A stretch of DNA of 64,000 nucleotides from Ananas comosus (taxonomy: Eukaryota > Streptophyta > Magnoliopsida > Poales > Bromeliaceae), in the NCBI RefSeq assembly GCF_001540865.1, contig NW_017893399.1, forward strand, positions 13,345 through 77,344. Reading direction: 5' to 3'. Of this stretch, positions 1 through 64,000 are shown piece by piece. Made by a program: the position numbers and the translations under genes. Numbering within the stretch: the stretch's first letter is position 1; each line of letters begins with the position of its first letter. The notes beneath the pieces are model-generated. The model made no database searches, was not told the origin of the DNA, and was given only the letters and a program-made list of their open reading frames with translations.

Positions 1-275
1 TAACTGGCATCAGACCCAACGTGGAAATCCACGTATAGATAACGGTGAGAGCAGTCTTAAGCTCTATCATCTTTGATCGGGTTCATATATACCACTCGGT
101 CTTGGATTAAACCAAGACAGTGGAGAATTTTAATGCTGGTACTTTTCATTTTCCAAAGCAGCTTAAGAGATATTATTTTTCAGACACCTGTTTATTAGGA
201 TGACAATACAGTGTTTTATCAAAACTTAAAGTCTTTTTATTGTCATTCTATAAGATACAAAATAAGTCCCTCTAA

Positions 276-279
<4 letters not shown>
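1..279. other. Unrecognised leading stretch
   Basis: No coding frame, RNA gene or repeat family was recognised in this AT-rich sequence. It abuts the (TA)n/(TC)n repeat and the mirror-image block. I could not decide by eye whether it is in normal polarity or belongs to the mirrored segment. Confidence 0.3.

Positions 280-366
<87 letters not shown>
280..366. repeat. Compound (TA)n(TC)n microsatellite
   Basis: About 19 TA dinucleotides run into about 25 TC dinucleotides. The complement, (AT)n(AG)n followed by MITE sequence, resembles the (TA)n(GA)n plus MITE arrangement at 58136-58293. This fits the idea that the mirrored block starts here or earlier. Confidence 0.9.
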
Positions 367-369
<3 letters not shown>

Positions 370-527
370 ACGTTCTTATGATAGCCATCATCCGAGCCAA
401 ATGATGGCTAAACAAAAACTACTATCTCGAAGGTTTAACTACTAGCCGTGGCAATTTGTACTAGATTTGATAAATTTGATAGACCTTTAGTTTAAAGTGT
501 GTAAAAGCTATAATAAGAGAACAGGTA
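367..527. repeat. Mirror-image fragment of the 550-bp foldback MITE
   Basis: Read as its simple complement (not reverse complement), this stretch resembles the MITE sequence at 58211-58293 plus 59872-59960, including the TTTGATGATAGAGCTTCC-like and ATTTTCGATATT-like segments in the same order. It ends where the mirrored LTR begins. Read normally or as reverse complement it matches nothing here. Confidence 0.7.
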
Positions 528-1295
528 ACAGTGCGGGGCCCCAGGGAAAAATAAACTTGTGTCGCCTTTTTCGCAGATTTTAAAAAAAAAAAAACTTTTG
601 GACTGGGGTCTCATACGGTCTAGGCGGTGTTTATGTCCTTAAGGTGACAAGTGTGCCTGTCTCAGAGGGGACATAAACGTGCCGCAGCGTGTTCATGTTG
701 CCATGTTTGTCCTATGTTGGTGTTGATTTACTTATATCTTTATTAATAAGTAAGTATGTAAGTATGTAAGTGGTAAGTGTAGTGTCTAAACGTAAATTAT
801 AAATTTGTATTTAGGTGTCTTTTAAAAAAACTTTTGACAAAGGATATGTCTTTGGAAATAAGAAATTTTTGTGATGGTGCTCCCTATCTTTTGGAAAGGT
901 AAAGTGTTTTAAGTGTTTAGGTAAATAATGTAAGTACTTTTAGGTATAAAAGTTTACATTATTTTATATGACTTGGTATATTTGATAGATTCGATATAGT
1001 TGTATTATCATTCCCATCTTGATTTGGCTTATTGGACCCAGCCTTCGAGATAGCTGGCGATGCATAGAGTGCAGGTCAGAGTTGGGAGTGGCGGGCGCTA
1101 TGGACTTTTTATCACCCCCTCCACTCTTGTACATTTATACAGAGGGGAGGGTCACCCATGGCGTTCGGCTTCTTCCGCTCCTCATGAGTGGCCTAGTGCT
1201 TCTCGATATGTTGTTGTGGCCAGCATCTTTATATCATCCTTGTTATTATTTGCTTTCTCTACATATTCCACTACTCGTTTATATGACTTATGTCA
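528..1295. repeat. Mirror-image copy of the 3' end of LTR family B
   Basis: The base-by-base complement without reversal reproduces the start of the antisense LTR at 19496. Bases 601-620 (gactggggtctcatacggtc) complement exactly to 19572-19591 (ctgaccccagagtatgccag), and the match continues past the 20 bases. Bases near 1095-1190 complement to the 20065-20165 segment. Open frames here (such as 1019-1330) are therefore not genes. The part covered corresponds to roughly the first 0.75 kb of the antisense LTR. Confidence 0.9.
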
Positions 1296-3860
1296 ACATT
1301 CCTGACTCTAAAAACGTCACGTTGATTTGAGAGACAACTGCTACAAATACACACATTAAATTAATGTATTCGTGAGCAGTTCAAAGTCTTCTTTTACTCG
1401 ATCTTACCTCTTCAATGCGCTAAAAATTTAAAGTGAATTCACTTATCATTGAGGCCAAAAAGCCTCTCCGGTTACGCACTTCATCCGAAGACCGCACATA
1501 GCCTGAGACAAGTATCGCTAGGTTATCGAGCAAAGCTAGCCAAGTCGATAAGACCTTGGTTACCGTGATTGCCTAAAGTCTAGACTACGTGCCAAAAGCT
1601 CTTTTTCTCTAAAATAGCTTTTCTCCCAAAAGCGAGAAACGACAAGAACGAATTACTCTGAGGAGCACGAGACACAAACACTGGATCTCATTCCACTCCC
1701 TACAATGTACATGGATGATCATCATCCTCTAAGTTTAAACTTAAACTTAATTTTCAAAATCCCAAATATGAAACCATATACACGCTATATGCCTAATTAA
1801 TCTCTCGCCAACCCAAGGCAGCGCTTAGGCACTGGTTTAGACTGCTTTGTTCTACCATCAAAACTACGGGAGCAGCATGACTTGCGTTACCACGTTAGGC
1901 AAGCCTTTAGGCTACTTGCCTAACAGCCTATAACGAACTTCAAGCGATTCCCCAGCTCTCACCTTTTAGCCCTTTGAGCGTTTTAAGCATTATAAAATAC
2001 ATGGCTTAGTGCGCTCTAGTCTGAACCTCCACGCATTCACATTTTATGAGTGTGATACTTCCTGACTAAAAGATTATTAGTCAAATCTCCCTGAACACAC
2101 GTTTCAACTGTTAGTACATACCAAAAAGATCCCAAACTAGTACCTATTGGGATTGAAACCAAGTGGAAGAGGGAGTCGGCTGGAGGGACGCTGTGGAGAC
2201 GTGTAAACGGGATCGGCACGTGCGTGGTGCCGGCGGCCGTCCACGAGGCCGGCGGCTTTTTGGGGCGTCGTGGTGGTAGAGGGAAGGAGAGCCGGTAGGA
2301 GAGAAGGAAGAGCCGGTATTTAGAGCCCCCCTCGAAGTCTTGTGGAAACCTTCGGAAGGGTACCGGCTCTAGGTAGAGGACGTAGTAGCGGCGGCCGGCG
2401 GCGGCAGGGACGGCGGGGGCTCGCGGCGGTGGTGGCGGGACCGGTTAACGCCGGTCTAGACTTGTCTAGACCGGCCCCAACACCCTAGAGAAAGGGGAGT
2501 ACGGCACCGGCGAGTTCTACCATTCGTGGTGGAAGGAACTTGGGGGGCCGCAGCAGTGGCGGCCGGGAGCGGCCAGGGCACCCGGCGGCTGCGGCAAAAC
2601 GAGGGACGCCGGTGGGAGCCAGTCGGGTCTGGCTCGTGCCCATCCGAGCTCTGGTCGCGCGGCGGCGGTGAGGTCTAGCCGGCGCGGCAGTAGAGAGTCG
2701 GAGGCCGCTGGAGGCCGATGGAGGGCGCGCGGAGGGGCGGCAGGGGCACGCGGCGGCCGGCGGCGAGAAGATGAGACGTCGGCGGGTCTTGAACACGCCC
2801 GGCTCCGGCTCGGTGGAGCCGGTGGCGTGCTGCGGCGGCGGGTAATAGCGCTCAAGTTGGAGGAGGAGCTGGAGGCCGCTGCTTGGTAGCGGCGGGGCCC
2901 GAGGAGGCCGGCGGCGAAGTGGCGGCCGCGGGAACTTGGGCTCTCCTTGAACCGCCTGAACTAGAGGCGGCGGCACGTTGGCCGGTGGAAGGCGGCGGCC
3001 GGTCGCCCACGGGGTCTGGGGTGGTTGGCCGGCGTGGGAGGGGACCGGCCTGGCGGGCGGCAGGCCGGCGGCCGCTAGTTGGGATCGAGGTGATGGATCC
3101 ATTCCGACATAACTACAATTGTCGTGATATAAAACCCTAAGGCCAGCGGAAAGGCCGCTAGGCTTCCGTGGGACTACTGTCATCTTCACTCGTGCTAGTA
3201 GCAATGAGGCACGACTCGTAGCACGAGTGGAGGCAGCCCCAGTAGCCAACGGGCCAAACGCACAATCTTCGCTTAATCCGCAACACGCGCGACAAAGTGG
3301 CTTAAAGCGTAGCGAGTATGCAAAGGGTGTCACCGGCTAAAACGAAGCTTTCCACTCGTGCCAGAGGCCGTGCGGCTCTGGATAGTCGCCCACGGAGCCG
3401 AAGTGACTAAGTAAAGACCAAACACGTCTGCCTGGTATTTTCGCGGCTTTAGCGTACTTTATTACGCTAAAGCCCATTAGCCCTCCCGAAAATACATAAA
3501 ACCCAACAACGCCGACGACAACCGTCGTACCCACTCATCACCCATTGGAGACCTGACTAACAGGTTCCGGGGTTCGGGAATGCCTCTGGCATTTCACTAA
3601 AGGCTACGCAAAGAGCCGCTTTAGGCAGCTGCCTTGCGCCCAAGCCAAGCCTTAATAAGGCTGCCACGAAGCACTCGATAACACATCAGCGGCTCGGAAC
3701 AAACGACCAGTGAACGCAGTAAAGCTCTCAAGTCTTTACTGCTCACTCGCTGCCACCCAAGGCCACAGCTTTAACTGTGAAGGTCCTTGGGCCTAGGGTT
3801 GTTAATAGGTGGTTATCAACAAACCAACACATAGGAACACAAACGGTCAACAGACCGATT
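1296..3860. repeat. Mirror-image copy of the 5' 2.5 kb of LTR family B
   Basis: This is the simple complement of the sense LTR. Bases 1296-1313 (acattcctgactctaaaa) complement to tgtaaggactgagatttt, the LTR start at 60206 and 62296. The GC-rich block 2160-3100 equals the antisense LTR (22400-23000) read backwards: ggcgtgggaggggaccggcc at 3032-3051 is the exact reversal of 22442-22461. Bases near 3430-3780 reverse onto 21690-22060. The frame of 282 codons on the minus strand is an artefact of this. The right edge, against copia sequence, is approximate. Confidence 0.9.
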
Positions 3861-3901
3861 ACTCGAAGCCAAGCCCAGGCTGATCCACTCCTCCCTCCAC
3901 T

Positions 3902-4700
3902 GAAAATGCAACTACATCTACACCTAGAATTGTACCTCCTATTGACCATAACATGATCAACTACCATTGTTTAAACCGAATTCTTAGTACCCTATCTGAC
4001 AAATTGTATGACATATACTATAGTGCTAAAACAGATAGGGAACTTTAGACATCCTTAGAAAATAAGTATGGTCAAGTTGATCCTACCCAGAAGAGATACC
4101 ATGCGTCAGATCTAATTAAATTTAAGTTGGTAGATAATAAGTCCATGTCTGACAAACTTCATGATTTTGAGCATATAGTTGAGCAGTTTAGATCTAGTGG
4201 TATAGATCTTCATGAGAGTTTCTTAGTTGCCGCCCTTATAGATAATAGTGGTATAGATCTAGTGGTATAGATTTTGAGCATATAGTTGAGCAGTTTAGAT
4301 CTAGTGGTATAGATCTTGATGAGAGCTTCATGACATAATAGTTTAGATCTAGTCGAACCCTACAAACGATCTTAACCACAATCAGAGAGAGCTATCTTTG
4401 AATTATGTCCTAAGATCCATAGGATAGAAGAGTCGAACAGAGTTAGGGATAAGAAGCCCAGTGAACCTACAATCCAAGCCAACCTAGTAGAGATCCAAAA
4501 AATAAGGATAGAAATTTTCATCCTCATAGGAACATTAAGAAGAAGTCTTTCCACCCTAGAAAGTTCAACCCAAATTTAAAGAAATCTAAACCTGAGGAAA
4601 GTGGAGGCAACTCTGGTTGCTTTGTGTATGGAAAGACGAACCATTTTGCGAAGGATTGCTACTTCCGCAAGACTCGACCTTCCATACCAAAACAAAATAA
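3902..4700 (+). pseudogene. copia gag with altered zinc knuckle
   Basis: The frame from 3902 reads as a copia-type gag (capsid) region with internal stops. A local duplication repeats about 55 bp of 4162-4220 at 4269-4324. The nucleocapsid zinc knuckle is at 4618-4662; the CX2CX4HX4C pattern is kept except that the second cysteine is tyrosine (TAT). In the family this protein packages element RNA into virus-like particles. The mutated knuckle and the stops make function unlikely. Confidence 0.8.
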
Positions 4701-5080: not shown

Positions 5081-5715
5081 AATAGGGTAGTTACAACAAA
5101 ATGAGTGAATTCTATAGGTAAGAAATTTTTGAGTGATGATTTATTTAAATTATTTGTATCTTCTCCTTCTATTAATGAAAGTGCTCTTATTATGAATATT
5201 ATTTCTCCTAATATTTGGCATAAAAGATTGAAACATGTGAATTTTAATACTATCAAAAGATTGATGTATCTTGATTTGATTCCTAAATTTGATTTACCTG
5301 ATCTTAGACGTGAAATATGTGTGCAAGCTTAGGAGCGTAGGAAACCATTTAAATCTGTAGATAGAGATTGTGATCTTTTAGAACTAGTGCACAGTGATGT
5401 TTGTGATGGAAGTAGATCTAGTAGTGGTGGAAATAAATATTTTGTGACATTTATAGATGATCATTCAAAGTATTGTTATATTTATTTGATCAAATCTAAA
5501 GATGAGGCTTTAAGTAGATTCAACATTTATAAGACTGAAGTTAAAAATCAATTAAATAAGAAAATCAAGATTTTGAGGTCTGATAGAGGTGGTGAATATA
5601 CTTCAAATGAGATGACTGCATTCTATCAAGAGTTTGGAATTGAGAATCAAGTGACTGCTCCTTACACACCTTAATCTAATGAAGTTGCTGAACGTAAGAA
5701 TAGAACTTTGATAGA

Positions 5716-7699: not shown

Positions 7700-8380
7700 T
7701 ATCTATATCCAAATATAGAGCATTGGAATGGCTTAGAAAGAGTTTTGAGAAATTTGAAAGGGTTTGTATCTTATGGATTATATTATACTGATTTTCCTGC
7801 AGTATTGGAAGGATATAGTGATGCTAACTGGATTAGTGATATAGCTGATATAAANAAGGGGTTTGTATCTTATGGATTATATTATACTGATTTTCCTGCA
7901 GTATTGGAAGGATATAGTGATGCTAACTGGATTAGTGATATAGCTGATATAAAGTCGACTACTGGATTTGTTTTTCTCCTAGGAGGAGCAGCTGTTTATT
8001 GGAAGTCAACTAAACAATCTTATATTGGTAGAAGTACTATGGAATCTGAACTTATAGTTTTGGATACTACTATAGCAGAAGCTAAGTGAATTAGAGAGTT
8101 TCTATATGATTTGCCACTTATGAAGCAACCTTTACTACCTATATATATTTATTGTGATTGTAAATCTGAAATAGATAAGTATGCCAAGAGAATGTGGAGA
8201 CTAAGATGAATAGATTCATGAAAATGAGACATAAATTCATTCGGCAGAATTTGAAGAAAAATGTGATTAGATTGGAATTTGTGAAATCTACAAAAAAAAT
8301 AGTTGATCAGCTTACAAAGGGATTATCTAGGACAGTGATCTTAGAATCGTCGAGGGGGATGGGGCTCAGCCCACAATAGA
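7700..8380 (+). pseudogene. copia RNase H, with assembly duplication
   Basis: The [17 protein letters not shown] and YCDCKSE segments provide the acidic residues of the copia RNase H. The first of these is present twice because of the duplication around the N at 7855. The frame stops near 8087 and is broken afterwards. The tail up to 8378 still resembles the end of copia Pol (KFIRQ, KKIVDQLTKGLS). Confidence 0.85.
7757..7953 (+). other. 98-bp exact direct duplication around a single N
   Basis: The bases on each side of the n at 7855 are the same about 98 bp (starting gggtttgtatcttatgg). This is the pattern left when two overlapping contigs are joined without merging the overlap. Confidence 0.8.
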
Positions 8381-15653: not shown

Positions 15654-16181
15654 ATGCATCGACACCGAGGTCGACCGCAGACCCGGGATCGTGCCACACC
15701 ACCGGAGATGCCTGAGCAGGCAGGACCGATTACACCCGCAGATTTGAGAGAGCAGTTGGCTGCCTTGACAGAGGTAATCAGGTAGCAGGGTGTGGTATTG
15801 CAGAGGATGTGCGAGACTGTCACTTAGCAGTCGGGCATTGGGCCAGGATCATCGGTGCAGCAGGCACCCCGGGTGGAGCACGGAGCTATATCAGTCCAGG
15901 AGCGGACAACAATGCCGGGGCAGAGGCAGGATAGGAAGCGTACGGTTCCAGATGACGAAGGACAGTCGAGCAGTAGACGTCCGCTGAAACCTCCACGATC
16001 ACGCTCTCAGGGTAGTGGGGGACGTCAGCGTTGTAGAAGATTTCGTCAGCAGGGACAGCAGCAAAGGACTCCGCTGTGCATTATTTGTGTTAGACCGCAC
16101 TGGCCTCGACAGTGTAAACAGAGAGAGGGCCGGTGCTATAGATGTGGACAACCTGGACATATGAGGGCGGCTTGTCCCTGA
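15654..16181 (+). pseudogene. gypsy gag, core capsid region deleted
   Basis: The frame from the ATG at 15654 encodes a basic, Gln/Arg-rich protein with in-frame TAGs near 15783 and 15825. Near the end are two cysteine-rich stretches: a CIICVRPHWPRQC segment and a proper CCHC zinc knuckle, CYRCGQPGHMRAAC, at about 16134-16175. At about 176 codons it is far shorter than the usual roughly 400 or more. The Retrotrans_gag-type capsid core expected between the N-terminal leader and the Arg-rich linker is missing, so this copy carries an internal deletion. Confidence 0.85.
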
Positions 16182-16701: not shown

Positions 16702-17380
16702 TTGATGAGTAGAGAATTTGTTGCTTTCATCGCTACGGTTGTGGAGGTGCCTATGGTGGCGCCGGGACTCGAGGATATCCCTATAGTCTGCGAGTTTTCG
16801 GATGTTTTTCTCCCGGAGTTGACGACGATACCGCCGGATAAAGAGATCAAGTTTGTGATTGATGTAGTTTTTGGAACTGCACCAATCTCGAAGGCACCCT
16901 ACCGGATAGCACTGGCAGAGCTGAGAGAGCTAAAGGCGCAACTTCAGGATTTGATAGATAAAGGGTATGTGGGACCCAGTGTATTGTCTTGGGGAGCGCC
17001 GGTGTTATTCGTGAAGAAGAAGGATGGTTCACTTAGATTGTGTGTCGATTATCGGGAGTTGAATAAAGTGATCATCAAGAACAAGTGATGATCTGTTTGA
17101 TCAGCTGAAAGGATCTTGTGTCTTCTCGAAGATTGATTTTCAGTTAGGTTACCACCAACTGAGGGTGGGGACCGAGAATATTCCCAAGACGGCTTTTTGG
17201 ATTCTGTACGGGCATTATTGGGTTACTGTAATGCCGTTTGGATTGACGAATGCCCCTGCCGTATTTATGAATTTGATGAATAGAGTGTTCAAGCCATTCT
17301 TGGATAGATTTATGGTTGTATTCATAGATGATATTTGGATATACTCCCGGAGTGATGCAGAGCATGAGGAGTTTCCTTGG
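16702..17380 (+). pseudogene. gypsy reverse transcriptase with internal deletions
   Basis: [26 protein letters not shown] and [11 protein letters not shown] (fingers and palm) are intact until 17088. There the frame breaks and a few codons are missing before [23 protein letters not shown] and [11 protein letters not shown] (the active-site DD) follow near 17230-17350. After EHEE the sequence jumps straight to the linker before RNase H, so about 65 residues of the thumb are gone. Confidence 0.9.
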
Positions 17381-17920
17381 ACTTAGCTGGATATTACCAT
17401 CGGTTTGTGGAAGGCTTTGCGAAGTTTTCCATACCCCTTACTCGATTGACTCAAAAGGGAATTAAGTTTATTTGGAGTGAGGATGGTCAAAAAAGTTTCG
17501 ATGAGTTGAGACAGAGGTTGATGTCAGCTCCTATCCTTGCCCTTCCAGTGATCGGGGAAGGATTTGTGATCTACAGTGATGCATCACACAGTGGTTTAGG
17601 TTGTGTGCTAATGCAGCATGGTAGGATAATTGCTTATGCTTTACGGCAATTGAAGGATTTACGAGAATAATTACCCTAAGCATGACTTGAGCTTGCCGCA
17701 GTGGTTATTGCTTTGAAGTTGTGGCGGCATTATCTGTATGGTGAGCACCGTGAGATTTTCACTGATCATAAAAGTCTCAAGTATCTGTTCATCCAAAAGG
17801 AGTTGAAGCAGAGGCAACGCCGGTGGTTAGAGTTGTTGAAGGACTAGGACATTAGTATTCAGTATCACCCCGGTAAGGCGAATGTGGTAGCAGATGCGTT
17901 GAGCAAGAAGTCAGTGCAGA
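17377..17920 (+). pseudogene. gypsy RNase H
   Basis: [15 protein letters not shown] is followed by the RNase H domain: YSDASHSGLGCVL (first Asp), [10 protein letters not shown] (Glu, after two stops), [12 protein letters not shown] (Asp) and NVVADALSKK (last Asp). Stops at 17668 and 17845 interrupt it. Confidence 0.9.
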
Positions 17921-17959: not shown

Positions 17960-18760
17960 AGGAGCTGTAGCGGTTGAGACTTATTATTTTCCTTATACGG
18001 TTCACCCTGGTGGAACCAAGATGTATAAGAATTTGAAGGCACAGTTCTGGTGGAATGGAATGAAGAGGGACATAGGCAGATTTGTGGCTCAGTGTCTGAC
18101 TTGTCAGCAAGTAAAGGCAAAGCATCAGATACCTGCTGGCAAACTTCTGAGTCTGCCAGTGCCCGAGTGGAAATGGGAGCAGATCACGATGAACTTTGTC
18201 GTGGGATTACCTAGAGCACAGGGTGGTTTCGATGCTATTTGGGTGATAATGGACAGACTGACTAAGTTTGCTCACTTCCTACCAGTACTGACCACCTGGT
18301 CCAGGGAGAGGCTCGCTCAGTTATATCTGGATGAGAATGTGAGGTTACATAGAGTGCCTAACTCGATAGTATCGGATCGAGACCCGAAGTTTGTTTCGCA
18401 CTTCTAGAGGAGTCTTCAGACAGCCTTAGGCACCCAGTTGCATTCAGCTCTGCGTTTCCTCACAGACGGATGGTCATTCCGAGCGGACCATTCAGACTCT
18501 GGAGGACATACTGAAAGCATGTGGCCTGGACTTTGGAGGAGGGTAGCATCGACATTTGAGATTGGTTGAGTTTGCGTACAACAACAACTACCAAACGAGC
18601 ATTCAGATGGCTCCGTTTCAGGCGTTGTATGGACGCAGATGTCGATTTCCTTTGTACTGGAGTGATGTGGGTGAAAGGAAGATTTTAGGGCTTGAATTAC
18701 TGTTGGAGGCTGAAGAAAAAGTTAAAGCTGTGCGATGACATATTTTGACAGCCCAAAGTC
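17960..18760 (+). pseudogene. gypsy integrase, catalytic residue changed
   Basis: The HHCC zinc domain appears as HPGGTKMYKNL ... CLTCQQVKAKH (near 18001-18125). The core has QITMNFVVGLP (18180-18212), where the usual first catalytic Asp of the family (MDF) is Asn (aac, near 18192). VSDRDPKF keeps the second Asp. A stop at 18403 and a frameshift destroy the Glu region. The later part (FAYNNNYQTSIQMAPFQALYGRRCR) is readable again from 18556. Confidence 0.9.
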
Positions 18761-19274: not shown

Positions 19275-19495
19275 TGTAGTGTTCCGAAGTTTTGGATAAG
19301 ATTTGCTACAGTATTAGTGACTGGTCGACATCTCTGGAGAGTGTCAGACTGAGTCGGAGTCATTTCTGCATGAAATGGATGCAGAAATAGACTCGGTGCA
19401 TTCAAATAAGCAAAACTTGAGTTTTGCCAATTTCGGGCGCCCAGAACTGGGTTTGGGTCGCACAGAACTTGAGTGTTGGTCTGAGCATAACTAGA
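19275..19495 (+). repeat. gypsy 3' LTR (family A), segment 1
   Basis: Starts TGTAGTGTTCCG directly after the purine tract. It contains cgacatctctggagagtgtc, shared with the solo LTR at 33937. Interrupted at ctaga by the antisense LTR-B insertion. Confidence 0.88.
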
Positions 19496-20649
19496 TGTCA
19501 CGCCCCGGGGTCCCATTTTAGTTTGAAACACAGCGGAAAAGCGTTTAAATTTTTTTTTTTTTTTTGAAAACCTGACCCCAGAGTATGCCAGATCCGCCAC
19601 AAATACAGGGAATCCACTGTTCACACGGACAGAGTCTCCCCTGTATTTGCACGGCGTCGCACAAGTACAAAAGTACAAACAGTATACAACCACAACTACA
19701 TGAATATACAGATAGCTACACCTTCATACATTCACCATTCACACCGTAGTTTTACATTCGATGTTTAAACAAAAGTCCACGAAAAATCTTTTGAAAACTG
19801 TTCCATACGCGAAAACTTTTATCTTTTATAAAAGCTACCACGAGGGGTAGAAAACCTTTTATTTTACCAAATCCAGAAATCCTTTTATTACATTCATGAA
19901 AGTCCACATATTCCAATGTAATAAAAATACTGAACCATATAAACTGACTAAGCTATAACAACAGAATAGTAGGGATAAAACTAAACCGATAACCTAGGTC
20001 GGAAGCTCTATCGACCGCTACGAACGTACCTCACGTCTCGTCCCAAAACTCAACGCCTGTAATACCTGAAAAATAGTGGGGGAGGTGAGAACATGTAAAC
20101 ATGTCTCCCCTCCCAGTGGGTACCGCAAGCCGAAGAAGGCGAGGAGTACTCACCGGATCAGGAAGAGATAAACAACAGTATGGGTAAGTAAAATACAGTA
20201 GCAACGATAATGAACGAATGAGATATATATATGAAAGCACAACTACCGCTACTGTAATGTACAACTGCAAGCATACAAGGATATCAAAACTATAGTAGCA
20301 AGACAACTGTAAAGAAAGAACTAGAAGTATATATGCAACAACCGCTACTATAGCTATATGCGTCAACCGGACGAGAAGTCCAAAAGTACCCAATCTAAAC
20401 CGCCGTGTCGGTCTAAGGACCTCAGGCAAAAGCCACTACCTGCTCACACCTGGCATGTAACCCTAGCACAAAGAGAACACCGCTGGGCTCACGGGTCGGA
20501 TGTACGACCACTTTTCCGGAAAAGAACACCCTCCTGCGGGGGATCAACCCGCTGGTGTACGTGAAATGCACTCGAGCTGTGGCGATCAATGCGGATATGA
20601 TCAATAGCCAACCGTCGGCAATCAGCCGACAATCACTGCCCCTCTGGGC

Positions 20650-21185
20650 ATACCGACCGTGTAGGTCATCAAGTAACAACGTGAACCGACCGAGATAGGT
20701 CAATGTACGGAAAGTAACGAACGACCAAACAGGTCACCGATGCAAATAGGAGAACCGACCAACCAGGTCACAAGTATAGTATATACGAATGCCATCTACT
20801 CTACCCCTATACAGGATACTACACATAGAACAACCAGGCAGAGTAAATAAAGATAGTATGTAGATACTGCTCGATGTCAACTAAAAGTACGAACGCAAGA
20901 ACCGACCGATAGGTCACAGGAGTGTATTCGATATAGTCCAGAACTACCGTCAGCACCAGCCGACAATCCTACCCCTCAGGGTACACCGACCTCAAAGGTC
21001 ATCGAACGACAGAAGTCAAGAAACAGACCAACCCAATACATAATGCAACAACCGACCAACCAGGTCAACAGATATAAGATAAAAGCACCGATCAACTAGG
21101 TCACCGAAACGAAGTACGAGAACCGACCAATCAGGTCACCGGAACAAAGTACGAGAACCGACCAATCAGGTCACCGGTATCACAT
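20650..21185 (-). repeat. Array of GACC...GGTC short inverted repeats in LTR B
   Basis: Variants of gaccgaccaatcaggtcacc occur repeatedly (near 20735, 20755, 20905, 21050, 21085, 21120, 21155), spaced irregularly by about 35 bp or more. Each unit can pair GACC with GGTC. The array recurs in the copy at 53450-53700. Confidence 0.8.
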
Positions 21186-22223
21186 ATGGATAAACTACTC
21201 TACTCCTACACATGATACTAAGCATAGAAACATATGAGTAGAGTATAATAGAAACAACGGGGATGCAAGCTCAATATATAATACGAAAATAGCAACAGAA
21301 GAACAGGGATAGAAGAAATATCACCGAGCGTGCACCACTGTACCGACTTCGGATCGAAGTACCCACCTGTACAAATGCTGCGCCTGTCTCCTGACTGCAA
21401 AAGGACGTCAACCGGACCTAAGGAAGGTCCACCGGGTTAGTGTCTAACCCACAGCTAATAACCACTAGATCCACAACCTACAAGCAAACCCATGGAGATC
21501 GGTTTCCCAAACCGATCGCCGTAATACGCCGGAAGTCCCGTAATCGCACGGGGACTCCGCCGGGAGCCACGAACTGTCCCGGAACATACCGACTCGAGCT
21601 ACGAGTCACCTGCTGCCACTAAACATAAATAATCATGCATCATGGCAGCGAACACAACTCCTCGTGTCGAAACAATTATCGTCGGATAATCGTTTCGATT
21701 CGGGTTCCCGGAAGTGTCTAATTCGACACCGGAACCCACCGTCGCTCACCCGTCATTTCCGAACTCTCGAAATGACGCAAGTGACCAGCCAACAAGGCTC
21801 AGCGACTACGCAAAAGCTCACGAAGCACCGTCGGAATAATTCCGAACCGAACCCGCGTTCCGTCGGCGGATTTCGCCGAAAAACGCACCGGAAATGCATT
21901 TCCGATCTTCGCAAGGGTCTGGGGCCTTGGACAATCAGTCCAGAGGTTATCCTCAACCAACACTTGCTGCCAACAGCAGCTACGACGAACCAAAATGCAT
22001 AAAAGCCCTCCTGAATACCTGAAATCGCATTATTTCATGCGATTTCGGCGCTTTTATGGTCCGACAACGCAAACCAGAGGTCAAACAGCCAAGACGAGAC
22101 TCCCGCTGACTGGTCTCGGCGTGCCGGAGGCCGTGCTCACCTTTCGGAGCACTGCCGGCCACTGTGGCACGCGCACGGGCGACGCAAAATTAGTGAAACA
22201 GCGCGCACAGTAGGAAAAGCATG

Positions 22224-22316
22224 CTTATCTCGCTAACCAGGGGCTCGTTGACCCTAAGTGAGGTGAGCACTGTGATCAGGACTGACTGACGATCACCGTG
22301 CTCACCTCCGGAGGCA
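22224..22316 (-). promoter_or_regulatory. Conserved hairpin in LTR B (GTGAGCAC stem)
   Basis: aggtgagcac...gatcaccgtgctcacct (about 22259-22312) forms a long stem. It is conserved in the copies at about 54835-54885 and 63652-63700. Confidence 0.65.
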
Positions 22317-23145
22317 TCGGAACAGCCTCAGGTCGCCGGAACAGTGAGTAGAACAGGAAACACTGCGCAGAAAGGCTGAAAACAAGCTTACCGGCCAGGG
22401 GAGAGCTAGGGTTGGCCGCCGGTGGCTGGACGGCGGGCGGCCCGGCCAGGGGAGGGTGCGGCCGGTCGGTGGAGTCCGGGGCACCTGCTGGCCGGCGGCG
22501 GGAGGCGGCCAGTTGCGCGGCGGAGGAGATCAACTCGATCTCTTGCTCTCGGGTTCAATGCTTCCCGGCGGCGTGGCGGCGGTCGGAGGAGGTCGGGGCG
22601 GCGACGGTACGTCGGCGGAGGTCGAGGAGGAGGTGGTGCTCCCGACGGTGGGCGGCGGCGGCCCTCGAAGGCCGTACTGGTCCAAGCAGGGCCCGCACGC
22701 GCTCGGGACGGCCGCAGAGAGCTCGGGTGGCGGCCGGCGGCGTGCGGGGACGGCGGGGAGGCGCGCGCGAGGTCGCCGGAGGTCGCCAGAGGGCGGCGCG
22801 GCCGATAGGGAGCGGTGGCGGCGCGCGGATGCAAAGATGACCCAAGCTCGGCCTGGGTGCATGCAGGTGGCCGCAGAGAGCTGGGGCGGCTCCGGCGGCG
22901 TGCGCAGGGACGACGGCGGCGACGAGGGGAGTCGCCGAAGGCTGGGCCACGGCCAGGGGACAAAGGTGCTCGAGCTAGGTGGCTACCAGGGTCCGCAAAC
23001 CACAATGCGGTGAAGGGGTTGGCCAAAAGGGAGAGAGAGAGAGGTGATGCAGGGATTTCCGGCGGCCGGAGGAGCTCGCCGGCGGCCGGAGCATGCGCAC
23101 GGGGAGGGCAGGAGATGGCTGAGGCGGCTGGTGGACTAGGGCTAG

Positions 23146-23200
23146 CAGGAACGACCTAGGGTTAGGGTTTCCAAGCAAAAAAATCTAACATCAACTTATA
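23146..23200 (-). promoter_or_regulatory. LTR-B core promoter region: TATA and telo-box
   Basis: On minus, a ttataag element (about 23190-23196) is followed by aaaccctaaccctag (about 23157-23171). The sense copies have the same order: TATA at 60874 and 62964, telo-box at 60909 and 62999. Confidence 0.6.
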
Positions 23201-23879
23201 AATGTAAGTGTAATTTTGCCGAAAAGTCCTCCAAGACTCAACCATTTAATCTTAGTCCCTCACCGCACGAATAAAACGTGCATAAACCCCTCCACGTGCG
23301 ATTTCACGCGAAACGGTACATAAAATGTCGCAACTTTTGCGAAATTACCGTTTTGCCATCACCGACCTCTCCTCGATCAACGCGCGATCTCCGCAGATCC
23401 GTCCGTCAGATTTGCGAACGGATTGCACCAGTGCGATCAGCACCTCGGAGACAACAAAGCTACACTTTCGATTCATCTCGATCGACCACGGATTCACAAC
23501 AAAATCCAACCTTCTTCCAATAGAAGGAAACACACACACAAATACATATAAAACATGTATTTTTGGATTTTCTCGAAATCCGTGCGTCAAACTCAAAATC
23601 CATCAGCGCCACTAGTTCCAGAACAGCTGAACCGGTCGAAACGAGCTATTGGACTGATATGAACGGAGTCCGATACGCACCAGAAGCCCACTCTACTCCG
23701 TGGCTTCTCCGGAAAACCGGAGTTACTATTCACTTAAGTGAAAACTAAAAATCGCGTATCTTTTCCATTTTAGCTCAGTTTCTCCTGAAACTTGACGAGT
23801 GCTTATGTAATTAAATTACACACATAAACATCATCAACAGAGAGTTTAGTAGCACTGTCAAAAAATCTCAGTCCTTACA

Positions 23880-36165: not shown

Positions 36166-36210
36166 GGGGGAACAAGGCCCTGGTAGAGAGAGAGAGAGAG
36201 AGAGAGAGAN

Positions 36211-50384: not shown

Positions 50385-50924
50385 GAATTAGGCTACTTAT
50401 ACTATCTATAGTTACCGGAGCTCGCGTTACTATAGTCTTGTTTTCGATGTTAGGCGTTTCAAATTAACATCCACACCGTTCATATGATTTTTAGGCGTAT
50501 ATGATTTTTAGAATAAATTTTGTAGTTTTTTCGACATCGTTTACTTAGTAATAAATTATATCAAACATATGACCGGTGATTGAATAATCTTTAAAATTTG
50601 AGCATAGAACTTTTAAATTCAAAATCAAGAATGTTAACCTTAATCTAGATAGCTTAAAATATTTTCTATCAAAATTTGAAGAAATTCAGATTCTTCTATA
50701 CCGTTAAACTCCAAACTCGCTATAGTAGCCCTTGAAAATTAACAATTTTGAAATTATTTGATCATAAAGTAAACTATGTCGAAAAAATATAAAATTTTAT
50801 GTCTAAAAACTTTAAATACCCTAGATCAGTTTTAACGGTGTGGATCGTTGATTTGAATACCCTAAAATCGAAAACGAGACTATAGTACCAGAGACCCGGT
50901 ACTATAGATAGTGTAGGAGACTAG

Positions 50925-50927
<3 letters not shown>
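50385..50927. repeat. MITE-550 subfamily with actatagtacc arms
   Basis: gttaccggagctcgcgttactatagtc left arm; gactatagtaccagagaccc right arm. Interior arms tttcgatgttaggcgtttcaaat and tgaataccctaaaatcgaaaac pair. Confidence 0.8.

Positions 50928-51000
<73 letters not shown>
50928..51000. repeat. Compound (CT)n(AT)n microsatellite
   Basis: CT dinucleotides to about 50978, then AT to 51000, between two MITE-550 copies. Confidence 0.95.
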
Positions 51001-51001
<1 letters not shown>

Positions 51002-52140: not shown

Positions 52141-55100
52141 GAGGTCGGACAGCAGTCTCCTTTGTATTGCAACGCTTACTAACACTGATACCAAACAGAT
52201 CAACAACTACAATCTACATTACCCAATCAACACCAAGGCATGATACTGCATTTCATACAGCTTAATAATCCTTAGAAGGATGCATGCCTCTAAGCATTCT
52301 TAGGCGCTGGATAGATGGCAATGCAGACAATAACACAAACATCCTATTTAAAAGTGCTGCCCACGACGGAAGCTTTTGTTTTTGAAAACTCTATTCTTCC
52401 ATGTCATAAAAACCATTCGATAAACCTTTTTAAAACTGTTTCCCACACGGAAAATCGTACTTTTGAAATACCCGACTTACCTCGAGGCCGTAGAAATAAC
52501 CCGATAATATAAATAACAGAGGAAAATCGATATCCATAAAATCAATATCCAAAATCCACAAAACCTTAGTTTACATCATAAATATACGAAAGGCATGCGC
52601 AGAATGACTACGCAAACTCAGATCAGCCAAACAATTCAAAACAATATCATAAGATCAGCCTTAACAGTGAACCTATAAACTATTCTAAGCTATATCAACA
52701 GGACAGTAAGGGTAAGAAACTAAACCAAGTAACCTGAGTCGGAAGCTTCTAGCGCCACATACGAACAGTGTCTCACGTCTCCGTCTCTAACTTCTCACAC
52801 AGCCGGCCGATACTGAAAAATAGTGGGGAGGGTAACACAACTTTAAACATGTCTCCTCCCTCCCAGGTGGGGTACCGCAAGCCGATGAAGGCGAGAGTAC
52901 ACCGGATCCAAGGAAGAGCCTAAAAACAGTACGGGTCAAGTAAATACAGGAGCAATAATTAGTGAAATGAAGCAGAAACATAACGAAGAGAGTACAACTA
53001 CGCGCTACTGTAATGGACTAACTGAAATTAATACATGTAACAAGAGCATGTAATGAAAGAACGAAGGTATACAAGCAAGCTACAACCGCTACTATAGTTA
53101 TATGCACAACTCGGACTAACGAAGTCAAATATACCCAATCTAGTACGCTGCTATATCTTGGTCCGCAGACAACTCAAGCGCATGCCTGTCACGAACCTGG
53201 CACATCCGACCTGATTCACGACCTCGCGGAACCGCCACAGGAACACCCATCCGGATAAAGTACACCTCCGACGGTGCCAACCGAAATCCGTGTCCGTGTA
53301 ATACCTCCAAGTCTGTGACTGAAGTCATGATGGTAATGCTGCAATACACGGCTAACCCAGGTGCCTAAGGCCGAAGCCAGAAACAAGGACGTACATACGC
53401 GCGAACCTCGATCAACCACAGTCGAAACACAGTGACGAGAGAGTCGAATGCGTTACCTGACCGATAGGTCCCACAGAGTCCAACCCGACCCAGCAAAGGT
53501 CCACGATACGAAGTACGAGAACTGCCAACCAGGTCAACAGATACGAATGCACAACCCAATCCAACTAGGTCAACAGATACTTGAAGCACAAGACAGACAA
53601 GGCAGGTCAAGCAGAGTACTCCGAATGCAACAAACAGACCAAACTAGGTCAACAGATACAGAATGCAACAACAGACCGTCATAAGACCACTCAGGTCAAC
53701 AGATACACATGTAGAATAGAACTACCTATCCTACTCAGGATATCTAAGCATGCGAAACAACGAGTAGAGTTAAACGCAAATAAACAAGGGTGCAAGCTCA
53801 AATACTATGGGCGATAGTACAACAGAAGAGTAAGGGTAAGAAAACCGTCACCTAATGCGTGCACCACTGTACTCGACGTCGGATCGAATACCCAACTCTG
53901 TACGGATGTTCGCGTCTATCCTGACCTGCAGGAAGAGAATTGTCGACAAGACCTATAGAGGGTCCCCGGGTTAAGTATCGTAACTCCACAAACTAATAAT
54001 CACAGTACCACACCTCACAACGATTCCACAAAAGATCGTTCCCAATACCGATTACCTAATCGCCGAGAGTCGAAAACCACACCGGAGCGCCCCGGCGGAC
54101 GCACTAAAGTGTCCCGAACATCAACCGACTCACACCAACAGTCACCGCCCGCTGCCCCCAAAACATTCAATTTGGGATGCCTTTGGCAGCGAACACAAAG
54201 TCAACACAACGATATGATCATCGCCGGAATAATCGTATACATCGGGTTCCCGGAGTTGTCTATTCGACACCGGAACCTCACGTCGCTTCACTCTATGCCT
54301 CATCGAACCATACAAAATTGACGATGGTAGCCAGGCCGCAACAAGGCTCAGCGACAAAACACGAGCAACCAAACACCGTCGGAAAGGACCGAACACGGCG
54401 AAACCCGCGTTCTTTCGGTCGATTTCGCCGAAAAACGCACACCAAAAATCGACTCCTTCGATTTTCCGCGAAAACTACAGGATCATGACAATCATCCAGA
54501 GGTCAAAACTCACACCACTTGCCCCACATGAGCCACACATGATGCACAATTGCATAAAGCCAAAAAACGCTCAACTTATCATAAAATAACCATATTTTAT
54601 GTAAATGAGCGATAAGCGCGGCTCGATCGACAGCAAACCAGGACTTTCGAAGTCCGCAAGAGACAGCGTACTGACAGTCCTCGACGTAACCGGAGTCCGT
54701 GCTCACGTCGGATTGTACACGCTCACTGTGGGAAGTCGCGGGAGCAACGACCGAAGAGTTCAGCGAATAGCGGCGCAGTCAGGGTGAAATCGCGCCCGTA
54801 ACAGAATAACTCGGACCTTCTGATACCAAAGTGACGGTGAGCAACTGTGATCGGCTCTGACCACAACGATCACGTGCTCACCTCCGAGGCAGTCAGAAGC
54901 CTCCGGATCGCCGGATAAACAACACATCGGAACCCGAAAACACGGTGCAGCCAAAAAGGCTGAAACGGGGCGAACATCGCCGAAACAGCGAACGGGCCTT
55001 CCCGACAAAAACTAAAGGTGAGCAGAGTGATCAGATAACCTTCCAAGGAATCATCGTGCTCCCGTTCGCGCAGAGACGGGAGGCTCGGGAAGCTCAAGAA

Positions 55101-56501: not shown

Positions 56502-56526
56502 NNNNNNNNNNNNNNNNNNNNNNNNN
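56502..56526. other. Assembly gap (25 N)
   Basis: A run of n of round length, so the gap size is a placeholder. Confidence 0.99.
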
Positions 56527-58210: not shown

Positions 58211-60205
58211 TTGGCTAGAAATACTAATCGATAGCATGCTCCGTTCCACCCATTTATTTCGATGATGGAGCCTCCAAATCGATGATGGATACCTGTCAAC
58301 GCCCCGGGCCGATTTTAAAAGCCCTTTTTAAAAATTAGAGTTGCGGAAAACGATGCCTTTTTTTTTTTTTTTTTTCAACCTGCCGCACGCGACGTACAGA
58401 CGCCGCCACAATACAAAGTCCTCTGTCGCACTCGGACAGCAGTCTCCTTTGTATTGCAGCGGCTTACAACTGATACACAACAGATCAACAACTACAACTA
58501 CCATTAACGCAATCAAACACCAAGGCATGATACTTCATTTCATACAGCTTAACAATCCTTAGAATGATGCATGCCTACTAAGCACTTCTATAGGCGCTGG
58601 ATGATGCAATGCAGCAATAATACCAAAAACATCCTATTTAAAAGTGCTCGCCCACGACGAAGCTTTTGTTTTTAAATACTCTATTCTTCCATGTCATAAA
58701 AAGCCATGTCGTAAACCTTTTTAAAACTGTTTCGCCACACGAAAAGTCTATTTTGAAATACCCGACTTACCCTCGAGGCGTAGGAAACAACACGATAATA
58801 TAAATAACAGAGGAAATCACGATATCCATAAAATCAATATCCAAATCCACAAAACCTTAGTTTACATCATAAATAAAACGAAAGCATCGCGCCAGAATCG
58901 TACGCAAAGCTCGATCACCAACATTCAAACAATTCATAAGATCATTAACGTGAACCTATAAACTATTCTAAGCTATATCAAACAGGACAGTAAGGGTAAG
59001 AAAACTAAACCGAATTAACCTGAGTCGGAAAGCTCTAGCCTGCAACTCACAACAGTGTCTCACGTCTCCGTCTCTACACTCTCACACAGCCGGGCGATCA
59101 CTGAAAAATAGTGGGGAGGGTGAACAAACTATGTAAACATGTCTGCCTCCCTCCCAGTGGGTACCGCAAGCCGATGAAGGGCGTAGGAGTACACCGGGAT
59201 CAAGGGAAGAGCCTAAACAACAGTACGGTCATAGAAATACAGGAGCAATAATTAGGAAATGAAGCAGAAGACATAGTAACGAAGAAGTACAACTACGCGC
59301 TACTGTAAGTGACTAACTGAAATGTAATACATGTAACAAGAGCATGTAATGAAAGAACGAAGGTATACAAGCAATTACAAACCGCTATAATAGTTATATG
59401 CACAACTCGGACAAAGAAGTCAAATATACCCAATCTAAGTACCATGTAGTATTTTGGTCCGCAGACGCTCAAAGCGCTGCCTGTCACGATACCTGGCACT
59501 CGACCTGATTCACAAACCCCCACAGACGAAATACATATAAAACATGTATTTTTGGATTTTCTCGAAATCCGTGCGTCAAAACCAAAATCCGTCAGCGCCA
59601 TTAGTTCCAGAATAGCTGAACCGGTCGAAACGAGCTATTGGACTGCTATGAACAGAGTCCGGTACGAGCCAGAAGCCAACTTCTCACCGCGGCTTCTCCG
59701 GAAAAACGAGTTACTATTCACTTTAAGTGAAAACTAATAATCGCGTAACTTCTCCGTTTTAGCTCAGTTTCTCCTGAAACTTGACGAGTGCTTATGTAAT
59801 TAAATTACATACATAAACATCATCAACAGAGAGTTTAGCTACACTGCAAAAATCTCAGTCCTTACAATACCGTTGAATATGATCTATATCACTTGAAGTG
59901 TTTAGAAATCAAATTTCATATATTTTCGATATTGTTCTCTTATCCATCGAGTGGATACAAAAATGAACGGCTAAAAATGAATATTCTTTAAAAAATGATG
60001 ATAAGAGTCTTGTAATTAAGATCAAGAGTATAGATCTTATTTTAAATAGTTTAAAAAATTTTCTAACAAAAAATTAAATGATTTCGGTATTTTTACGCCG
60101 TTAGACAAGAAAACGTCTCATATCGACCATTAAAATTACAAATTTTGAAATCTTTGATCATTAGGCAAATGATGTCGAAAAGATTTGAAATTTGATTTAT
60201 AAACT
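58211..60205. repeat. MITE-550 split by a solo LTR (left 58211-58293, right part 59872-60205)
   Basis: tttcgatgatggagcctcc leads to atacc (58289-58293), where the LTR-B solo insertion starts. The MITE resumes as ccgttgaatatgatc after the second atacc. It is interrupted again at 60206 by the sense-strand gypsy element; the remainder lies beyond the window. Confidence 0.8.
58294..59866 (-). mobile_element. Solo LTR, family B, antisense, internally deleted
   Basis: Termini tgtcaacgccccgg and ctcagtccttaca, with a perfect target duplication ATACC (58289-58293 and 59867-59871). Sequence up to about 59515 matches the first 1.2 kb of the antisense LTR. It then jumps to the last 350 bp (cagacgaaatacatataaaac), so about 2.8 kb, including the GC-rich leader, is gone. 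Confidence 0.88.
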
Positions 60206-61029
60206 TGTAAGGACTGAGATTTTGGCAGTGTAGCTAAACTCTCTGTTGATGATATTTTTGTGTGTATTTTAATTACAAAAGTACTCATCAAGTTTCGAAA
60301 GAAAATGAGTTAGAATAGAGATTTTACGCGATCTTCAGTTTTCACTTAAAATGAATAGTAACCCGGATTTTCAAAAAGGCCAATGAGGAGAGATGGCTTC
60401 TAGCGCGTATCGGACTCCGTTCATAGCGATCCAATAGCTCGTTTTTGCTAGTTCGACTATTCTGGAACCATTGGCACTGTTGGATTTCAAGTTTGACGAA
60501 CAGATTTCGAGAAAACTGATGATACATATATTATATGTATTTGTGTGTCGTTTTGCCATTTGGAGAGAGGACGGGTTTCGTCGCAAATCTGCAATCAAAC
60601 CAGGCAAAACAAAATTGTGGTTTTGTTGTCTCTGTCGTGCGGATTGCATTGGTGTGATCCGTTCGCAAATCTGACGGACGGATTTCCTGATATCGCACGT
60701 TGATCGAGGAGGGGTTTTAGATGGCAAAATGATAATTTTGCGTAAAGCTTGACATTTTATGTACCGTTTTGCATGAAATCGAATGTGGGGGTGTATTCAC
60801 GTGTTTTACTCGCGCTGTGAGGGATTAAGTGTTAAATACCGAGTTTCGGTGGACTAACTTGCAATTTTACACCTTATATATATAGCTCACCTAGGGTTTG
60901 CCCCATGCAAACCCTAACCCTAGCCCTAGCTGCGCCCCCAGCCACCTCCATCTCCCTCCCCTGCCCTCACTGCGTGCACCCCGGCCGCCAGCGCGCGCCT
61001 CCGGCCACTAGAACAAGCTGCATTGCCTC
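60206..61029 (+). repeat. LTR B, 5' 0.82 kb, sense
   Basis: Collinear with 62296-63119 with scattered substitutions. It stops at cattgcctc, where the TRIM begins. Confidence 0.9.
60874..60917 (+). promoter_or_regulatory. LTR-B TATA box and telo-box
   Basis: ttatatatatag (60874-60885), then aaaccctaa (60909-60917). Identical arrangement at 62964-63007. Confidence 0.7.
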
Positions 61030-62295: not shown

Positions 62296-64000
62296 TGTAA
62301 GGACTGAGATTTTGGCAGTGTAGCTAAACTCTCTATTGACGATATTTTTGTGCGTATTTTAATTACAAAAGTACTCGTCAAGTTTCGAAAGAAAACAAGT
62401 TAGAATGGAGATTTTACACGATCTTCAGTTTTCACTTAAAGTGAATAGTAATCGGGATTATCGGAAAGGTGAATGAGGAGAGATGGCTTCTAGCGCGTAT
62501 CGCACTTCGTTCATAGCGATCCAATAGCTCGTTTTCATTGGTTCGACTATTCTGGAACCATTAGCACTGATGGATTTCAAGCTTGATGCACGGATTTTGA
62601 GAAAATTGATGATACATATATTATATGTATTTATGCGTCATTTTGCCATTTGGAGAGAGGATGGGTTTCGTCATGAATCTACGACCAAACCAGGCAAAAC
62701 TAAATTGTGGTTTTGTTGTCTCTGTCGTACGGATCAGACTGGTGTAATCCGTTCGCAAATCTGACGGACGGATCTCCTGATATCGCGCATTGATCAAGGA
62801 GGGGTCTTAGATGGTAAAATGGTAATTTTGCGAAAAGCTCGACATTTTATGTACTATTTTGTGTGAAATCGAATGTGGGGGTGTATTCGCACGTTTTACT
62901 CGCACTGTAAGGGATTTAGTGTTAAATACCAGGTTTCGGTGGACTAACTTGCAACTTTACACCTTATATATATAGCCCACCTAGAGTTTGCCACATGCAA
63001 ACCCTAACCCTAGCCTTAGTTGCGCCCCCAGCAATCTCCATCTCCCTCCATTGCCCTCACTGCGCGCACCCTGACCGTCGGCGTGCACCTCCGGCCACTG
63101 GAACAAGCTGCATTGCCTCCTTCTCCTTTATCACCTCCACCACCTTTGCCCGTGGACCACCCTGGGTGATCCTTACCTAGGGCACCCCCCTCTGGCAGTG
63201 TCCCTACCTCCGGCGACTCCTCCAACTTGTCCCTGCCGGCCACCGCCGCTCCCGCGCGCCGCCACTGCAAGCCCAAGGAGCCTGCAGTTTCCTGGAGCTG
63301 CTAGGCCGAGGAAGCCTTAGCTTCCTAGCCCCCGCACCACAGCCGTCAGGAGCCACTCCCGCGGCACCTCTCCGGCCTCAGGTGTTCCCCGCTGTCGCCC
63401 CTGAGAGCCCCACCGGCCACTGTGGCCTCGCCGCTCCTGGACCCGAGCCCTAGCCCGTATGGGCTCAAGTTGCTCCGCCGCGGCGGCCGTAGGCAGGCGG
63501 GAGCCTCGGCCTCCCCACGTCGACCACACCTGTCGGCCGCCGGCCGTGCCCTAGCCCCCTCTGCCCGGTAAGCCTTAATTAATGTTGTTTGTGCGTAGTT
63601 CTGGTTTGTGCTTATTTTTTCAGCGATCCGAGGCTGTTCCGATGCCTCCGGAGGTGAGCACGATGATCGCTGGTCAGTGCTGATCAAAGTGCTCACCTCA
63701 CTTTGGATCAGCGGACACCGAAACTGCATTTCCAGCACAGTTTTCCTTGAGTGCGCACTATTCGCTAAAAGTTCGGGTCGTTCCCGCGCCTCCCACAATG
63801 AACTGTTGTGCTCCGAATCATGAGCACGACCTTCGGTACATCGAGACCTGTCAATACGTGTCTCAGCGGACCTCGAAAGTCTTCGGTTTGCGTTAACAAG
63901 CCACAAAATCACCTGATTTACATAAAATGATAGGATTTTATGTAAATGTAGGGACTTTTATGCAATTGTGCATCTTGTGGCTACTGTGGGCAGTATGTAA
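62296..64000 (+). repeat. LTR B, 3' LTR, sense, incomplete at window end
   Basis: Starts TGTAAGGACTGAG after the purine tract. TATA at 62964-62975, telo-box at 62999-63007, GC-rich leader to about 63570, hairpin at 63652-63700. Roughly 1.7 of the expected 4.4 kb is present. Confidence 0.88.

Follow-up and report, generated by a model that had tools for sequence, protein, structure and literature searches.

A block of pineapple scaffold sequence that is very probably string-reversed in place, and similar blocks elsewhere in the assembly

Some database entries have been deposited, as whole entries, in a reversed but uncomplemented form. The string operation is the same as the one considered here; in the present case, however, it repeatedly affects pieces that lie within scaffolds and chromosomes. 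H-DNA mirror repeats, in which a single site carries a short symmetry with two arms, also involve reversal without complementing, but the block described below instead copies dispersed elements. Draft scaffolds that are misoriented or chimeric resemble the block in that they are bounded by gaps or seams and are cured by turning the piece. Ordinary misorientation, however, produces the reverse complement, which is real DNA in the wrong direction, whereas the block as written would correspond to no real molecule. Chimeric sequence has been reported in the F153 v7 pineapple reference (PMC8774480). A search of the open-licence literature found no report of assembly errors in which a piece is reversed but not complemented; such errors may be known elsewhere.

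The window, i.e. the whole stretch of DNA that was analyzed, comprises 64,000 nucleotides from Ananas comosus (C2914:13345-77344; contig NW_017893399.1 of assembly GCF_001540865.1). A mirror match is defined here as one in which the letters are read backwards without complementing them or, equivalently, are complemented without reversing them. The comparisons point to a block at 1..3851 that is almost certainly (probability about 0.98) genuine genomic DNA, string-reversed in place during scaffold building or gap filling. Mirror-only homology, a polarity HMM, its LLR, a seam test and the position of Ns all bear on this reading.

Mirror homology and composition of the block

Comparison of the whole window with itself produced 35 mirror alignments at E≤1e-8, and every one of them has one side inside 409-3845. 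Bases 2773-3823 align in the mirror sense with 21670-22719 (79%, 1056 columns) and bases 528-1266 with 19496-20229 (86%, 748 columns). Additional mirror alignments join 1295-1605 to 59557-59867 (88%), 1278-1605 to 60188-60515 (81%), 1296-1605 to 62296-62605 (82%) and 3123-3845 to 54189-54948 (63%). An earlier note on this DNA had proposed that the segment be reversed and realigned to 19496-23879 and 62296-64000, and within these regions the block does align in this sense with 21670-22719, 19496-20229 and 62296-62605. The same note had contrasted its reading with a better ordinary alignment; between 200-4000 and the sequence past 4000 there is no ordinary match at E≤1e-8. With laxer limits the ordinary matches consist of simple repeats, a 52-column match of 2390-2440 to 22729-22780 (E 4e-5) and two AT-rich matches near the left end, at 191-276 (E 1e-3) and 235-294 (E 4e-4). 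Two short exact matches that the note had given are also confirmed: 601-620 is the non-reversed complement of 19572-19591, and 1296-1313 has its exact non-reversed complement at 60206 and 62296. A third, 3032-3051 read backwards as 22442-22461, is a mirror match but was given one base too long, as the 19 bases 3032-3050 correspond to 22442-22460.

The control for these results used all 24 permutations of the bases, each in both directions, under a lenient and a strict scoring. The strict scoring gave 24 mirror alignments, all 24 of them between 1-3900 and the remainder of the window, and 181 ordinary (native) alignments, none of which connects these two parts. The class that exchanges C and G gave four and three matches in its two forms, and the other classes gave none. 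Two of the C/G-exchange matches link the block with the remainder; they are one pair counted from each side, 2656-3075/22417-22826, which is a GC-rich shadow of a true mirror pair. The lenient scoring, which lets alignments run on, gave matches in several classes that are neither native nor mirror (up to 11 after filtering of simple repeats); one of these filtered matches has its query within 1-3900. Those listed for the C/G-exchange class are mostly of sequence against its own diagonal, together with the same GC-rich pair.

The mirror homology allows the block to be divided into parts. A (TA)n(TC)n microsatellite (279..366) adjoins a mirrored MITE-like repeat (367..527). The earlier note had already held that this MITE sequence behaves like the rest of the block, which agrees with 14 mirror matches for 200-527 against one weak, AT-rich native match; bases 290-521 align in the mirror sense with 50767-51001 (75%). 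Several MITE copies in the window adjoin (TA)n. The Ac-mMITEs of pineapple are microsatellite-associated MITEs, and the (TA)n dinucleotide flank, which their description gives as a feature (PMC8449440), is present at the block's repeat. The repeat adjoins both (TA)n and (TC)n, and in this respect resembles the Ac-mMITEs. Bases 528..1266 are a mirrored LTR-like repeat; its complement starts with TGTCACGCCCCG, and it recurs as written elsewhere in the assembly. A second mirrored retroelement piece (1295..3845) is mirror-homologous to the opposite strand of 21670-23879 as well as to parts of 54189-54948, 59557-59867, 60188-61006 and 62296-63997.

Next to homology, the composition of the block was examined with a symmetrised 6-mer polarity HMM trained on window 3852-64000. 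The training sequence and the block have repeat families in common, so that this test is not fully independent of homology. The model labels 1-3833 as mirrored, and the LLR of the block is -49.5, while 150 equal-length windows outside it have a minimum of +6.4 and a median of 27.7. Out of fold, the only mirrored label within 3852-64000 covers 405 bases (58625-59029). This call is probably false, since 58951-59268 stands in mirror relation to the block. Polarity models of order 3 and 4 were noisier, with 14% and 12% of 239 outside windows of 500 bases being negative.

Coding evidence shows the sequence right of the block to be in its true polarity. Pfam families were found in four of the six native-polarity frames tested there, all on the forward strand: an integrase core (5333-5671; PF00665, E 4.1e-16), which belongs to the copia-type element described below, a zinc knuckle (15828-16178; PF00098), a reverse transcriptase (17072-17383; PF00078) and an integrase zinc-binding domain (17961-18404; PF17921). 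None of three frames tested inside the block gave a Pfam family at E≤1e-3. They include the 282-codon frame on the reverse strand at 2485..3333, which would be an artefact of the reversal. The fact that the native frames carry domains and the block frames do not indicates that the block is the odd piece. This is in line with the view that the block's frames are meaningless as written, although the absence of domains is weak evidence when taken alone because the elements are largely non-coding. The length of open frames in mirrored segments was also considered as a test of polarity and was uninformative, the elements being mostly non-coding and GC-rich.

Extent and seams of the block

Both ends of the block differ from the 367 and 3860 of the earlier note. 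On the left its first letter is base 1 of the window, and the 1177 letters immediately before it (C2914:12168-13344; L010 3169-4345) are all Ns. These are probably a scaffold gap, although stretches withheld from the genome copy analyzed would also appear as Ns. On the right it ends at about 3851, at a seam that contains no Ns and lies inside an element. The native sequence beyond this seam contains a frame on the forward strand (3884..4240; internal stop kept in the translation), which we take from its look to be the gag of an interrupted copia-type element. Elements of the copia type have the order gag-integrase-RT, and the integrase core at 5333-5671 lies downstream of this putative gag.

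The sequence that is expected to precede the gag can be seen in three other genome copies of it (L034-L036). The string-reversed bases 2-284, 1-290 and 1-297 align upstream of gag in L034, L035 and L036, with scores of 287, 388 and 382 respectively; the native and reverse-complement controls for this region score 23-33 in two of the copies and 70-77 in L036. Bases 1..297 thus represent, in mirrored form, the region just upstream of a copia-type gag, with a (TA)n tract at the end. In L035 and L036 the reversed base 1 falls one copy base before the match of window base 3852, and native homology begins at 3844; in L034 the string-reversed alignment stops at window base 2. At the seam (3844..3852) eight bases of the reversed end, CGGTCAAT, resemble those at 3844-3851, CGGTCAAC, so that the seam may be placed anywhere from 3843/3844 to 3851/3852. 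Reversing the block restores continuity at the right seam against all three copies. The earlier note was therefore right that the join is free of Ns, and the join becomes continuous to the base once the block has been turned. Since the sequence upstream of gag is matched by 1-297 when these bases are read backwards, and base 1 then abuts ~3852, the whole of 1..~3851 appears to be string-reversed in place.

The true order would accordingly run from letter 3851 down to letter 1 and then onward from ~3852. Read in this way, the region would be a retroelement mosaic, followed by a MITE that lies in (TA)n; the upstream end of a copia-type element would come next, ahead of its native gag.

On the same contig, to the left of the window, C2914 contains a stretch (L009 674-1201) that aligns with the window in the mirror sense at E≤1e-10 but that the polarity model did not call. 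The contig may have a second mirrored piece here.

Mirrored segments elsewhere in the assembly

The assembly that was searched, most likely that of pineapple F153, comprises 381,958,007 bases in 3128 contigs. With bases 528-1266 in their written form as the query, at least 45 matching stretches were found, the window included (best 40 of 96 candidates scored). Twenty regions were taken from these matches and represent 16 new places. All 16 places contain mirrored segments, a count to be read in the light of the query, which selects for such segments; native segments also occur in 14 of the 16, the two others being L024 and L027. The yardstick for native polarity was the window right of the seam. 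This yardstick took the place of a two-colouring of 100-base tiles by native and mirror links, which gave 254 conflicts in 8811 links and labels that swapped between sub-families.

In-place reversal was performed at four loci, which were chosen from 13 examined since their ends could be bounded. As written, native alignments span none of the eight seams of these loci. After reversal they span five of the eight (both at L016, the right at L020 and L023, the left at L025), with native alignments such as 20641-21537 at L016, 19496-22596 at L020 and 19489-22937 at L023. Three right joins are restored to the base, at 20960|20961 (L016), 20370|20371 (L020) and 21309|21310 (L023) in window coordinates. 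The three seams that were not restored (left at L020 and L023, right at L025) all adjoin Ns. More generally, several mirrored pieces have an end at a single N or at a short run of Ns, and 7 of 30 boundaries called by the HMM are at most 200 bases away from an N-run where 2.5 were expected. Ns are thus enriched at the boundaries without explaining every join, and many joins are N-free. Judged by these alignments, the same assembly carries the polarity error at further places. The processing error that the earlier note had favored, i.e. a piece reversed but not complemented, is supported as to its kind, but it would have happened a number of times in this assembly and not as a single accident.

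A second query provides an estimate of how often this occurs. The string-reversed sequence of window 3856-4160 was found at two places, C12:9147714-9148018 and C18:29494-29795 (both of two candidates scored), and the ordinary sequence in at least 41 stretches at 40 places, including the window (best 40 of 69 candidates scored). The mirrored rate for this gag repeat is 2 of 42 when only scored places are counted and 2 of 71 when all candidates are, roughly 3-5%, a figure that is very uncertain as it depends on two events. Gag peptides matched the two mirrored places (L039 and L040) only after string reversal, and they matched three native gag places only as written. A tblastn search with seven pol and gag peptides of the window against 29 string-reversed loci gave no match, so that the evidence for mirrored coding sequence comes from the two gag copies.

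A random sample of 70 kb consisted of 7 of 60 drawn chromosomal regions, taken in list order, and none of 20 unplaced scaffolds. In this sample the HMM labels one 1-kb piece as mirrored (L029 2982-3981), which is a candidate only. Two other stretches called by the model, L019 1150-2989 and L021 8551-9901, have little or no support from homology.

Origin of the reversal and its consequences

The step that is the likeliest source of the block would be the placement of a gap-filling or edge-extension contig, in which a minus-strand copy was complemented and not reversed or, equally, a copy was reversed and not complemented. We infer a placement of this kind because the reversed piece sits between Ns and a base-exact, N-free seam.

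Four other explanations can be considered. The present analysis rests on one copy of the genome, and the error could have arisen later, in this copy and not in the published assembly. This has only a small probability, as several mirrored pieces have an end at a single-N or short-N join in the manner of assembly pieces, and a copying step would presumably not produce such joins.

Less probable again is an error in the decoding of color-space (di-base) data, in which the decoding of a contig would have begun with a wrong base. In the SOLiD encoding a wrong first base can give the complement without reversal, and one of the three wrong starts yields exactly this. The transforms expected from the other wrong starts (A<->C with G<->T and A<->G with C<->T) gave no matches in the window, however, and Illumina, Moleculo, PacBio and BACs are the platforms listed for pineapple F153 (PMC6022998).

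A real mirror rearrangement, or a mirrored transposon family that was spread by a polarity-inverting mechanism, is far less probable than either of these. The presence of mirrored sequence at other genomic places and the lack of Ns at the block's right seam would both be compatible with such a family. However, the mirrored copies do not form a clade. A tree was built from 16 mirrored and 3 native copies, 19 in all, and support is weak for 10 of its 16 inner branches. In this tree a single mirrored clade is rejected with a p-AU of 8.06e-10 at a cost of 90.5 log units, and mirrored and native copies interleave with three label changes, the maximum possible with three native rows. Two copies in contig C61 (L013 3619-5300 and 6957-8638), one native and one mirrored, are 99.0% identical (1664 of 1681 aligned bases); they probably represent the LTR pair of a single young element, with one LTR mirrored. 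A perfect mirror palindrome was looked for in C61 and is absent. Furthermore, some mirrored segments end within elements, and in-place reversal rejoins their flanks to the base; the Ns at which several of them begin or end also argue against a biological origin. DNA is antiparallel, we know of no process that flips its polarity, and there is no known chemistry by which strands of parallel polarity would be joined.

Chance similarity or low-complexity mirror symmetry, of which the mirror-symmetric (TA)n(TC)n tract is an example, is already refuted by mirror alignments of 748 and 1056 columns at 86% and 79%, the absence of ordinary matches at E≤1e-8 and the strict permutation control.

A piece string-reversed during scaffold building or gap filling is not a biological novelty; it is of practical interest that the error recurs in an assembly which is probably a reference. 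On balance we lean towards the view that a reference plant genome contains a recurrent and apparently unreported class of error, in which the polarity of a few per cent of the repeat DNA is flipped. If this is true, it gives rise to repeat families and gene frames that are false and that escape ordinary BLAST checks, because mirrored letters match only mirrored letters; reads fail to map there. The as-is sequence taken alone resembles a dispersed family, and in this way mirrored pieces create spurious repeat families. They also create spurious frames, and they may lead to lost parts of genes and to false absences. A simple test of polarity, either the 6-mer LLR or a string-reversed query, reveals the error that is hidden from an ordinary similarity search.

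Other irregularities in the window concern its remaining Ns and the copia-type element. Neither the run of 25 Ns at 56502-56526 nor the single N at 36210, in a CT microsatellite, has a direct or mirror repeat across it within flanks of 400 bases. Around the single N at 7855 there is a direct repeat of 95 bases (7760-7854 and 7859-7953; score 95/95), which duplicates part of the coding region of the copia-type element and suggests that contig ends were joined here without merging their overlap. Two local duplications lie inside the same element, 4163-4222/4270-4329 (96.7%) and 5716-5881/6034-6199 (99.4%), and these could be real or be further duplications of the assembly.
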